This document shows positions 21,293 to 26,894 of a DNA stretch of 64,000 nt, piece after piece. Each line of letters opens with the position of its first letter. Position 1 is the stretch's first letter. This stretch comes from Mycobacterium marseillense (GTDB taxonomy: Bacteria; Actinomycetota; Actinomycetes; Mycobacteriales; Mycobacteriaceae): positions 1,984,001-2,048,000 of the forward strand of contig NZ_AP022584.1 in assembly GCF_010731675.1 (NCBI RefSeq), in the 5' to 3' direction. A program made the translations under genes and the position numbers. Under the pieces are notes generated by a model, which saw only the letters and a list, made by a program, of their open reading frames with translations, made no database searches and was not told where the DNA came from.

Positions 21293-22603
21293 GTGTACGG
21301 TGCGCTGGTGACGGCAGCTGAATCGACCCGAACCGGCTCGCGCGAGCGGCTCCTGGCCGCCTTTCGTCCCCGCACCGGCGCGCCGAACGTGGCGAGCATC
21401 TTGCGGTCCGCGCTGTGGCCGATCGCCATCCTTTCGGTGCTGCACCGCAGCATCGTGCTCACTCTCAACGGCAATATCACCGACGACTTCAAGCCGGTGT
21501 ATCGCGCGGTGCTGAATTTCCGGCACGGCTGGGACATCTACAACGAGCACTTCGACTACGTCGACCCGCATTACCTGTATCCGCCTGGCGGCACGCTGCT
21601 GATGGCGCCGTTCGGGTATCTGCCCTTCACCCCGTCACGGTTTTTGTTCATCCTGATCAACACCGTCGCCATCCTGATCGCGTGGTACCTGCTGCTTCGG
21701 ATGTTCAAATTCACGCTGGGTTCGGTGGCCGCGCCCGCCTTGTTGCTGGCCATGTTCTGCACTGAGAGTGTGACCAGCACGCTGGTGTTCACCAACATCA
21801 ACGGCTGCGTCCTGCTGGCCGAGATGTTGTTCCTGCGCTGGCTTTTGGACGGGAGGGTCAGCCGACAATGGTGGGCGGGCCTCGCGATCGGGCTCACGCT
21901 CACGCTCAAACCCGTGCTCGGCCCGCTGCTGTTGCTGCCCTTGCTGAACCGCCAGTGGCGAGCGTTGGTACCCGCGTTCGCGGTGCCCGTCGTCGTCAAC
22001 CTGGCCGCCTGGCCGTTGGTCAGTGATCCGATGGACTTCGTCACCAAAACGGTGCCCTACTTCTTGGGCACCCGCGACTACTTCAACAGCTCGATCGAGG
22101 GCAACGGCGTGTACTTCGGCCTGCCCACCTGGCTGATCGTGTTCCTGCGAATCCTGTTCACGCTGATCGCCATCGGGGCCATGTGGCTGCTGTACCGCCA
22201 CTACCGCACCCGCGATCCGCTGTTCTGGTTCACCAACTCGACAGGGGTGCTGCTGCTGTGGTCATTCCTCGTGTCGTCGTTGGCCCAGGGCTACTACTCG
22301 ATGATGTTGTTCCCGTTCCTGGTGACGGTCGTGGTGCAGAACTCGCTGATCCGCAACTGGCCGGCCTGGCTCGGGATCTATGGCTTCATGGCGCTGGACG
22401 ACTGGCTGATCTACCGGTGGATGAGGTACGGCCGCGCACTGCAGTACCTCAAGATCACCTACGGGTGGTCGCTGCTGTTGATCGTGACGTTCACGGTGCT
22501 GTACTTCCGGTATTTGGACGCCAAAGCCGAGAACCGGCTGGATGACGGCATCGATCCGGCGTGGCTGACGGAAGAGCGGGAGCGCGCTAGCGTGGATGCA
22601 TGA
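21293..22603 (+). CDS. aftC: Arabinofuranosyltransferase AftC
   Basis: A 436-residue polytopic membrane protein with about ten helices, matching AftC (Rv2673), the alpha-(1,3) arabinofuranosyltransferase that introduces branches in arabinogalactan and lipoarabinomannan using decaprenyl-phosphate arabinose. The periplasmic GT-C catalytic Asp pair is in NGNITDDFKPVYRAV (about residues 58-72), followed by FDYVDPHYLYPPGG. GTG 21293 reproduces the N-terminus MYGALVTAAES that I recall for the tuberculosis protein. Its stop overlaps the msrB start by four bases. Confidence 0.92.
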   Translation: MYGALVTAAESTRTGSRERLLAAFRPRTGAPNVASILRSALWPIAILSVLHRSIVLTLNGNITDDFKPVYRAVLNFRHGWDIYNEHFDYVDPHYLYPPGGTLLMAPFGYLPFTPSRFLFILINTVAILIAWYLLLRMFKFTLGSVAAPALLLAMFCTESVTSTLVFTNINGCVLLAEMLFLRWLLDGRVSRQWWAGLAIGLTLTLKPVLGPLLLLPLLNRQWRALVPAFAVPVVVNLAAWPLVSDPMDFVTKTVPYFLGTRDYFNSSIEGNGVYFGLPTWLIVFLRILFTLIAIGAMWLLYRHYRTRDPLFWFTNSTGVLLLWSFLVSSLAQGYYSMMLFPFLVTVVVQNSLIRNWPAWLGIYGFMALDDWLIYRWMRYGRALQYLKITYGWSLLLIVTFTVLYFRYLDAKAENRLDDGIDPAWLTEERERASVDA

Positions 22604-23022
22604 CCTCCCCCGACGTGTCGCAGCCCAAGGTGCAACTCAGCGACGACGAGTGGCGCAAGAAACTCTCCCCGGAAGAGTTCCACGTGCTGCGCCAAGCCGG
22701 CACCGAGCGACCCTTCACCGGTGAATACACCGACACCAAGACCGAAGGCGTGTACCAGTGCCGGGCCTGCGGGGCCGAATTGTTCCGCAGTACAGAGAAA
22801 TTCGAGTCGCACTGCGGCTGGCCGTCGTTCTTCGACCCGGCGAAATCCGAGGCGGTGATCCTGCGGCCCGACCATTCGATGGGGACGACGCGCACCGAGG
22901 TGCTGTGCGCGACCTGCCACAGCCACCTGGGCCATGTGTTCGCCGGTGAGGGCTACCCGACCCCGACGGATCAGCGGTACTGCATCAACTCGGTCTGCCT
23001 GCGCCTGGTGCCGGCCGAATAA
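22600..23022 (+). CDS. msrB: Peptide-methionine (R)-S-oxide reductase MsrB
   Basis: A 140-residue MsrB. Zinc ligands are Cys54/Cys57 (CRAC) and Cys103/Cys106 (CATC). The catalytic Cys128 lies in QRYCINS, and the HCGWPSF motif with Cys72 is a likely resolving or structural site. It reduces methionine-R-sulfoxide in oxidised proteins with thioredoxin. ATG 22600 overlaps the aftC stop by four bases, so it is translationally coupled to aftC, as in M. tuberculosis Rv2674. The repeat-flanked nuclease cassette begins only 27 bases after its stop. Confidence 0.95.
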   Translation: MTSPDVSQPKVQLSDDEWRKKLSPEEFHVLRQAGTERPFTGEYTDTKTEGVYQCRACGAELFRSTEKFESHCGWPSFFDPAKSEAVILRPDHSMGTTRTEVLCATCHSHLGHVFAGEGYPTPTDQRYCINSVCLRLVPAE

Positions 23023-23049
23023 CGTCGCCAGACTCTTCTCGCCAGGTGC

Positions 23050-23111
23050 CGCGACACTTAAACGGTTGCGACGACGCGCCGCACAGCCTCGCAACCCTTT
23101 AAGTTTCGTGG
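23050..23111. repeat. Hairpin-forming direct repeat, upstream copy
   Basis: About 62 bp, sharing roughly three quarters identity with 23983-24044 in the same orientation; both begin CGCGACAC and end TTTAAGTTTCG-GG. Within this copy, CTTAAACGGTTGCGA (23057-23071) and TCGCAACCCTTTAAG (23089-23103) form a 15-bp stem with one mismatch and a 17-nt loop. It lies between msrB and the solitary nuclease gene. Confidence 0.75.
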
Positions 23112-23119
23112 GATCCCAC
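23108..23119. promoter_or_regulatory. 12-bp palindrome upstream of the AbiEi-like gene
   Basis: GTGGGATCCCAC is a perfect 12-bp palindrome, 27 bases before the GTG start of the AbiEi/DUF559-like gene and touching the end of the upstream repeat. AbiEi-type proteins often bind inverted repeats at their own promoters, so it is an operator candidate. Confidence 0.4.
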
Positions 23120-23145
23120 CGCCGCGTCGTTACGTCTTTGAGGTT

Positions 23146-23994
23146 GTGGACGACGTATTCGTGGGCAGCGAGGCAGTGCGGCTCGGGCTGGTGAGCGCCT
23201 ATCAGCTGCGGACGGGCTTCCGCGCGATCTATCCAGACATCTATCTGTCGAACGCCGCGACACTGTCGCTGAGGACGCGTTCGGCTGGGACGTTTCTGTG
23301 GTCGCGGCGGCGCGGCGTGCTCGCCGGACTCGCCGCGGCGGCGCTGCACGGGTCGCGATGGATCGACGATGACGAGCCCATCGAGTTGATCTGGCGCAAC
23401 CCGCATCCGCCGCGCGGTGTGATCACCCGAAATCAGCGCATCGAGCCCGACGAAGTCACCTGGCTCAGCGGTTTGCCGGTGACCACTCTTGCCAGGACCG
23501 CGTTCGACCTTGCCCGGCAAGGTCCAATCGGCGAGGCGGTGGCGCGGATCGACGCGTTGATGCGCGCCACGCCGTTCTCGCTCGAGAATGTGCTGCTGCT
23601 GGCCAAGCGATACCGCGGTGCGCGCGGCCTGCGTCGGCTGAGGTTGGCCCTGCCTCTGGTCGACCCGGGCGCGGCGTCGCCCAAGGAGACGTGGTTGCGC
23701 TTACTGCTGATCAACGCCGGCCTGCCCGTCCCGACCACGCAGATACCGGTGCAGTACAACTGGCGACTGATCGCGTTACTCGACATGGGCTGGGAGGAAT
23801 ACAAGGTGGCCGCCGAGTACGACGGCGATCACCATCGCACGAACCGTAAGCAGTACGCGCGTGATCAGAGTCGGCTACGAGAGCTAGAAGAATTTGGGTG
23901 GACCGTCATCCGGGTGATCGCCGACGACAAGCCGGGCGAGGTTGTGGACCGCGTGCGCCGTGCACTCATCCGCCGCGGATACCGCGACACGTAA
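23146..23994 (+). CDS. Solitary AbiEi-like/DUF559 nuclease-fold protein
   Basis: A 282-residue protein. The N-terminal part (MDDVFVGSEAVRLGLVSAYQ, then IYPDIYLSNAATLSL and RTRSAGTFLWSRRRGVLAGLAAAALHG) resembles AbiEi-type toxin-antitoxin regulators. The C-terminal part (about 205-280) has ALLDMGWEEYKVAAEYDG-DHH and LRELEEFGWTVIRV, the Vsr/DUF559 endonuclease-like core. No partner AbiEii nucleotidyltransferase gene is adjacent. Such solitary genes are frequent in mycobacteria, role unclear. It sits between msrB and a methyltransferase gene, which I recall as adjacent in M. tuberculosis, and is flanked by direct repeats, the downstream one covering its stop codon. Likely an inserted cassette. 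Confidence 0.75.
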   Translation: MDDVFVGSEAVRLGLVSAYQLRTGFRAIYPDIYLSNAATLSLRTRSAGTFLWSRRRGVLAGLAAAALHGSRWIDDDEPIELIWRNPHPPRGVITRNQRIEPDEVTWLSGLPVTTLARTAFDLARQGPIGEAVARIDALMRATPFSLENVLLLAKRYRGARGLRRLRLALPLVDPGAASPKETWLRLLLINAGLPVPTTQIPVQYNWRLIALLDMGWEEYKVAAEYDGDHHRTNRKQYARDQSRLRELEEFGWTVIRVIADDKPGEVVDRVRRALIRRGYRDT

Positions 23995-24044
23995 CCAATT
24001 GCGATGACATGCCGAAAAGCATCGCAGCGGTTTAAGTTTCGCGG
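23983..24044. repeat. Hairpin-forming direct repeat, downstream copy
   Basis: Imperfect copy of 23050-23111, 933 bp downstream in direct orientation. It begins in the last codons of the AbiEi-like gene (CGC GAC ACG TAA; the upstream copy reads CGC GAC ACT TAA), and ends TTTAAGTTTCGCGG. It also has internal symmetry (GCGATG near 24001 and CATCGC near 24020). Confidence 0.75.
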
Positions 24045-24071
24045 TATGGGTGGCGCGCGGGCGGCCGGACG

Positions 24072-26894
<2,823 letters not shown>

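Follow-up and report, generated by a model that had tools for sequence, protein, structure and literature searches.

A gene for an AbiEi-like/DUF559 nuclease in Mycobacterium marseillense lies between two copies of a long palindrome. Homologous genes of other mycobacteria are bordered by such palindromes in the same register, and palindromes without the gene are dispersed in mycobacterial genomes and variably present between species. The explanation we favor, with a probability of about 0.6, is a small mobile element with one gene between two cognate palindromes, in which the free palindromes are dependent copies and the plan is that of a REPtron with an unrelated enzyme. The first-pass annotation had described a repeat-flanked, solitary nuclease gene in the window (the whole 64,000-nucleotide stretch analyzed); this observation is confirmed and extends beyond the window to a recurrent, genus-wide arrangement. 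Its interpretation holds for the mobile, repeat-bounded unit but not for the upstream repeat as the possible tail of a lost gene.

Palindromes and nuclease gene in M. marseillense

The two palindromes (Table 1) are part of a direct repeat of 66 nt (23049-23114 and 23982-24047) with 77% identity and a spacing of 933, close to the two imperfect repeats of about 62 bp, about 75% identical and 933 bp apart, that were first described. Both copies fold as single-stranded DNA, with -16.0 kcal/mol (z -3.8) for the upstream and -14.4 kcal/mol (z -3.0) for the downstream palindrome. The earlier claim of hairpins is therefore right, but its 15-bp arms are too short, as each arm has 24 positions, where position i faces 64-i and a mismatch at 7/57 is usual. 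The downstream repeat was also correctly said to hold the gene's own stop: CGC GAC ACG TAA at 23983-23994 is in frame and ends the nuclease gene, and the upstream palindrome reads CGCGACACTTAA at the same place. The Pfam families of the two neighbors bear out the location between msrB and a methyltransferase gene, and, according to the first-pass annotation, these are presumably adjacent in M. tuberculosis.

Table 1. Features of the palindrome-bordered gene and its neighbors, in window positions
Feature	Position	Strand	Remarks
msrB, left neighbor of insertion site	22600..23022	+	Pfam SelR
Upstream palindrome	23049..23111	+	63 nt; arms of 24 positions; GACxCGCCG conserved in the loop
Linker from palindrome to start codon	23112..23145	+	34 nt; GAGG, possible ribosome-binding site (by eye)
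Gene for 282-aa protein: AbiEi-like N-terminal part and DUF559/MTES_1575 (Vsr-type) nuclease domain	23146..23994	+	GTG start
Putative catalytic-residue codons E181, D213, E224, D226, H230	23686..23835	+	Conserved; catalytic role predicted from conservation
Downstream palindrome, overlapping the gene's stop codon	23982..24044	+	
Methyltransferase gene, right convergent neighbor	24072..24824	-	Pfam Methyltransf_25

The covariance model of this palindrome type (R1) scores the upstream copy at 75.6 bits and the downstream copy at 74.4 bits in the M. marseillense genome. A search of the genome with the upstream copy as query found the downstream copy at E=5e-8, and two strong copies in all. A known RNA family was rejected: of two matches, both far below their gathering scores, the one that covers the upstream palindrome was to a microRNA family (21.2 of 142 bits).

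The protein matches Pfam DUF559 with 22.4 bits, above the cut-off of 20.6, and MTES_1575 with 29.8 bits, under the cut-off of 38.2; the latter family is matched at E<=0.01 in 49 of 49 family members. PADLOC profiles of AbiEi match residues 45-161. Of the putative catalytic residues, E181 and H230 do not vary among 49 homologues, conservation of D213, E224 and D226 is at least 90%, and all five are identical in 13 of 13 close homologues. The dN/dS values across nine pairs of close homologues are 0.15-0.24, and the protein is therefore under purifying selection. At E<=0.01, the Pfam domains in the 49 members were MTES_1575, DUF559, AbiEi_1 and, once, DUF1153, and no HUH Y1 transposase domain was found among them. 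A distant-likeness search with the nuclease domain returned PDB 3r3p, a mobile intron protein which we take to be I-Bth0305I, at E=0.39 amid equally weak unrelated matches. By profile match and conserved catalytic-type residues, the protein belongs to the DUF559/MTES_1575 (Vsr-type) nucleases, a domain type assigned to the Vsr-family REases (PMC3710099).

Homologues were found at E<=1e-40 in 196 of 198 mycobacterial genomes, and at E<=1e-15 in 127 of 246 genomes of the class, genus members included. The window copy is the sole intact, full-length one among the homologue matches found in its own genome. The others (L028-L032) look broken: one has an in-frame stop, one is split over two frames, and one is split by an insert of about 2.1 kb, whose reading frames we assume to be IS21-like.

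Linkage and structure of the palindromes

The R1 model was scanned over 80 named homologous loci, all from Mycobacteriaceae and comprising 681 kb. At 31 loci, R1 palindromes stand in the same register both upstream and downstream of the gene, at 8 they stand on one side, and a single match in the 681 kb lies away from the gene (L114:8419). Whether the repeat is tied to DUF559/AbiEi genes, a question raised by the first-pass annotation, can thus be answered with yes. The upstream palindrome is in the gene's sense at all 35 loci where R1 scores it, and the distances between gene and palindromes are nearly always the same at R1-flanked loci. A tail of a lost homologous gene is rejected as the origin of the upstream repeat, since this copy is palindromic, has a fixed register and sense, and also occurs without genes.

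No R1 match was found by the gene at the other 41 loci. Many of these are more distant subfamilies, and many carry their own paired hairpins of about 60 nt in the same places. A comparison of the two flanks at 74 of the 80 loci (six with other coordinates were left out) gave a flank-pair similarity of at least 40 at 56 loci, compared to 6 of 414 control window pairs; 18 of the 74 genes score below this value, and several of them retain the upstream hairpin only. Within one element, the left and right palindromes are more similar than between elements (0.857 vs. 0.774, p=0.0002, for 12 forward msrB elements), and they evolve in concert, as if one were copied onto the other. Among 16 loci outside the genus, paired palindromic flanks are clear in L291 and L300 and weak in L292, and the same test showed none in 12. 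At L287, a homologue in another genus of the family has a short tandem repeat on each side, inverted, and the homologue at L284 is enclosed by inverted repeats, about 190 nt long, in which a palindrome of another type is found.

The R1 alignment (A1; 35 of 37 copies, L059 and L062 left out) has the consensus CCGCGACACNTAA...GACACGCCG...TTTANGTYTCGCGG, with position i facing 64-i and a conserved, asymmetric loop motif. Its covariation is modest, with 79.6% of cells paired vs. 77.6% after shuffling and 29 two-sided changes vs. 20.4, and position 10/54 switches among U-A, A-U and G-C. The second model, R2, is 57 nt long with i facing 58-i and was made from 27 copies of other subfamilies (alignment A3; one copy per locus from 27 of 42 loci examined, picked for a readable 57-nt hairpin). 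Compensation is strong in R2, with 117 two-sided changes vs. 43 +/- 6 after shuffling. Paired cells amount to 90.3% vs. 30-41% in slid alignments, a percentage biased upward since the copies were chosen for palindromic fit. The stems vary from one subfamily to the next, while these have the loop motif around TACTCGCACTTT in common.

Dispersal, variable presence and movement

Gene-flanking copies included, R1 palindromes occur in at least 80 and R2 palindromes in at least 183 of the 198 genomes; these counts are lower bounds given the candidates scored per genome (4 in a first scan, 27 in the R1 scan and 28 in the R2 scan), and counts by model take in both strands of one place. By hand count among the matches listed, R1 copies were present in 21 of 21 genomes with a best homologue of 70% identity or more, in 18 of 25 genomes where this value is 60-69%, and in 41 of the remaining 152. 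The 21 genomes have from at least 3 to at least 27 copies each. This association of homologue and palindrome across genomes is confounded by descent, and some genomes (such as G133 and G079) have many palindromes yet no close gene among the matches listed. When six genomes were scanned more deeply with R1, each had 9 to 50 matches, both strands counted. M. marseillense itself is poor in palindromes, with 9 matches over both strands that include two strong places, the rest being weak.

The gene context was assessed for 35 free palindromes using simple codon-usage gene calls (L165, L166, L168, L181 and L182 left out). No predicted gene fully contains any of the 35, and of the 31 that could be classified, 15 lie between convergent genes, compared to 2 of 14 other gene pairs at the same loci and 15 of 63 pairs among coarsely called genes of the window. 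Free palindromes also resemble the gene palindromes of their own genome (similarity 0.789) more than those of other genomes (0.759), and only 2 of 40320 label permutations, the true one included, were as high. The test comprised 52 palindromes from eight genomes (L147, the clusters L165, L166 and L168, and L180-L182 of M. marseillense left out), of which only 16 have their closest counterpart among the gene palindromes of their own genome (1/8 by chance). G001 is an exception, where the solos are mostly of the other N10 type than that of its gene. In G194, palindromes recur in tandem at L165 (G194:C1:881393-881714), about every 129 bp, and close pairs are also found near 312 kb, 3882 kb and 4260 kb, like REP clusters.

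At four orthologous sites, some species have the palindrome and others lack it, a pattern in which gain and loss look the same. Site L158 is filled in G194, G001, G117, G128 and G133 and empty in G096, G000 and G116, with an unclear filler in G060; L149 is filled in G163, G096, G001, G172 and G079 and empty in G117, G060 and G128; L148 is filled in G163 and G075 and empty in G079; and the M. marseillense palindrome L180 is absent in G060. Several filled sites hold extra unmatched bases, and no clean target duplication was seen at the filled sites compared, a pattern consistent with joining through host repair. At one orthologous site, G116 has a 916-nt insert that resembled a cassette at first and was rejected, since by eye its reading frame is a different one. 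By eye, the flanking DNA beside the palindrome is duplicated in short tandem copies at L214, L231 and L317, possibly as traces of break repair.

The gap after msrB was compared in 59 of the 194 genomes with msrB, a non-random panel chosen mostly by msrB similarity. Forward cassettes fill it in 7 genomes and inverted ones in 9, one genome has a decayed cassette, 13 have a palindrome alone (five R1, two of them weak, and eight R2, one of them weak), and there is no model match in 29. A methyltransferase match follows within about 2 kb of msrB in 48 of the 59 (one of them weak). The empty site with a single repeat, by which the first-pass annotation proposed to check its cassette, thus exists in relatives, including the genome with the most similar msrB among the 198 (G060, 98%), whose 118-nt gap (L213) holds a single palindrome and no gene. 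Both parts of the refutation proposed there, a repeat without a link to such genes and the lack of an empty site with one copy, thus spoke for the cassette. By eye, the gap also has, in other species (L234, L235, L241 and L251), another sequence resembling a palindrome (GAGAGTGCA ... GCACTTTCGCG), whole or as a half; the convergent gap after msrB therefore collects several palindrome types.

Comparison of flanks places the R1 subfamily at six chromosomal sites, counting both msrB orientations as one; at two of these (L091, and L076 of the pair L076/L094) one end has too low a score to count as R1. The forward and the inverted msrB units fall in different clades in a tree of 38 proteins, and three units at another site, which we take to be QcrB-like from its sequence, are sister to the inverted msrB units. 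The downstream palindrome is turned round in 15 of 15 units of the inverted msrB and QcrB-like sites, and the unit therefore seems to move with both ends. Such site changes are rare, with 10 on the tree and a minimum possible of 9. Collectively, a repeat-bounded unit that changes place, with six chromosomal sites and both orientations at msrB, agrees with the earlier proposal of a mobile cassette. In collections of plasmids and phages, the homologue search gave one weak match each, and the gene is no cargo there; a DNA search of the plasmids matched the msrB part alone. Plasmid or phage cargo was rejected on this basis.

Interpretation and comparison with known systems

We infer that the palindrome is cleaved and mobilized, and that its mobility depends on the protein. 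The AbiEi-like N-terminal part would help to bind the palindrome, and the nuclease would nick or cut it, probably when it is extruded or single-stranded as a hairpin. Repair of the break by copying or capture would then move the palindrome often and the palindrome-gene-palindrome unit rarely. Judged from sequence, the protein most likely binds and cuts its companion hairpin, because the active-site-like residues are conserved and the companion hairpin is fixed. A stronger version, to which we would give slightly less than even odds, dispenses with transposases and recombinases altogether: a single restriction-type (Vsr/PD-(D/E)XK) nuclease, fused to an AbiEi-like DNA-binding part, would recognize and spread the hairpin that belongs to it, with host repair as the joining step. 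This would be a new class of mobile DNA, common in mycobacteria and extending to other actinobacteria.

The main rival is homing alone, where the nuclease cuts at solo palindromes already there, homologous recombination via the nearly symmetric palindrome copies the gene in, in either orientation, and the palindromes spread otherwise. The empty, solo, forward and inverted states of the msrB site are compatible with copying of the gene into a cleaved allele, and the higher than expected likeness of left and right palindromes within one element, as well as the distant likeness of the nuclease domain to 3r3p (E=0.39 only, among equally weak unrelated matches), point the same way. Homing alone leaves the gene-less copies and their likeness to the resident gene's type unexplained, and we regard it as unlikely on its own; homing into solo palindromes may be part of the same process. 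Less likely still is that the palindromes are operators or terminators, with the AbiEi-like part repressing its own gene and the downstream copy ending transcription. This would suit an upstream copy that is in the gene's sense at 35 of 35 loci and, in the window, lies about 34 nt ahead of the start codon, the enrichment of free palindromes between convergent genes (15/31 vs. 2/14 and 15/63), and the binding of inverted repeats by AbiEi for autoregulation (PMC7319586). However, an operator needs neither presence and absence at orthologous sites nor dispersal, a conserved loop motif or a second copy over the stop. Autoregulation may act alongside mobility, as the two are not exclusive.

It is very improbable that host processes or an unrelated transposase spread the palindromes while the gene merely sits in a hot spot, even though convergent gene gaps are tolerant sites and several palindrome types meet at the msrB gap. 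One gene family in a fixed register, at several sites and in several subfamilies, argues against such a passenger role, as does the distribution of Y1 transposases (PF01797), the transposase family searched, which occur in just 33 of the 198 genomes. They are absent from M. marseillense and from G000, G001, G163, G194, G075, G096, G057, G099, G172 and G117, and present in G116 and G164, which are among the 21 genomes that have a close homologue. An integron cassette was rejected, as all 7 pairs of R1 palindromes 0.5-2 kb apart among the matches listed for six genomes enclose this AbiEi/DUF559 family.

In the literature searched, chiefly open-access articles with preprints aside, we found neither a description of DUF559/AbiEi genes with palindromes nor an assigned role for the AbiEi/DUF559 family. 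The small mobile element favored here, with its predicted enzymatic activity, would be a new kind, though its plan is REPtron-like, because the defining enzyme of REPtrons and of IS200/IS605 was looked for and not found. If the link between gene and palindrome holds, the abundant AbiEi/DUF559 genes of mycobacteria gain a definite substrate, their own palindrome, and mycobacteria gain a genus-wide REP-like family. It would also be a second, independent way of spreading palindromes, so that REP spread could be studied with an unrelated enzyme. In addition, presence or absence of a palindrome could mark relatedness between strains.

Several known systems share single features with this element. 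As in AbiE (type IV toxin-antitoxin) systems, the N-terminal part matches AbiEi profiles, but the neighbors are msrB and a methyltransferase gene rather than an AbiEii nucleotidyltransferase/toxin partner, and a nuclease domain is fused instead. The EDxHD (Vsr-like) homing endonucleases also have a free-standing nuclease gene and perhaps a distantly similar domain (3r3p, E=0.39), whereas here a full palindrome lies on each side and gene-less copies are scattered. The stem-loop families described in M. tuberculosis in 2008 are likewise dispersed, structured repeats in a mycobacterium and include Myt-1 (72 nt, 75 members) and Myt-8 (92 nt, 33 members); in the available text of PMC2267715 they are given without a linked gene, and they may include the palindromes described here. 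IS200/IS605 elements have palindromic ends too (PMC8266576), while the mycobacterial element lacks a TnpA Y1 transposase and has many end-only copies.

The closest likeness is to the REPtron (RAYT/TnpAREP and REPs), where the resident gene is also bordered by palindromes, many copies are intergenic, gene groups co-vary with palindrome groups, and the stem has a recurrent irregularity, here the mismatch 7/57. A palindrome-bordered gene with dispersed copies is likewise found in the mycobacteria, in M. marseillense itself weakly. However, the mycobacterial palindromes are 57-63 nt with a conserved loop, as opposed to REPs of 20-50 nt with a GTAG tag, and by eye no constant tag of this kind stands beside them in the alignments and junctions. 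REPtrons follow the same plan with a HUH transposase, whereas the mycobacterial protein combines a Vsr-type nuclease with an AbiEi-like part, and no HUH transposase was found in 49 members. For tnpAREP, mobility is not on record (PMC8266576). In contrast, the mycobacterial nuclease gene does change sites.
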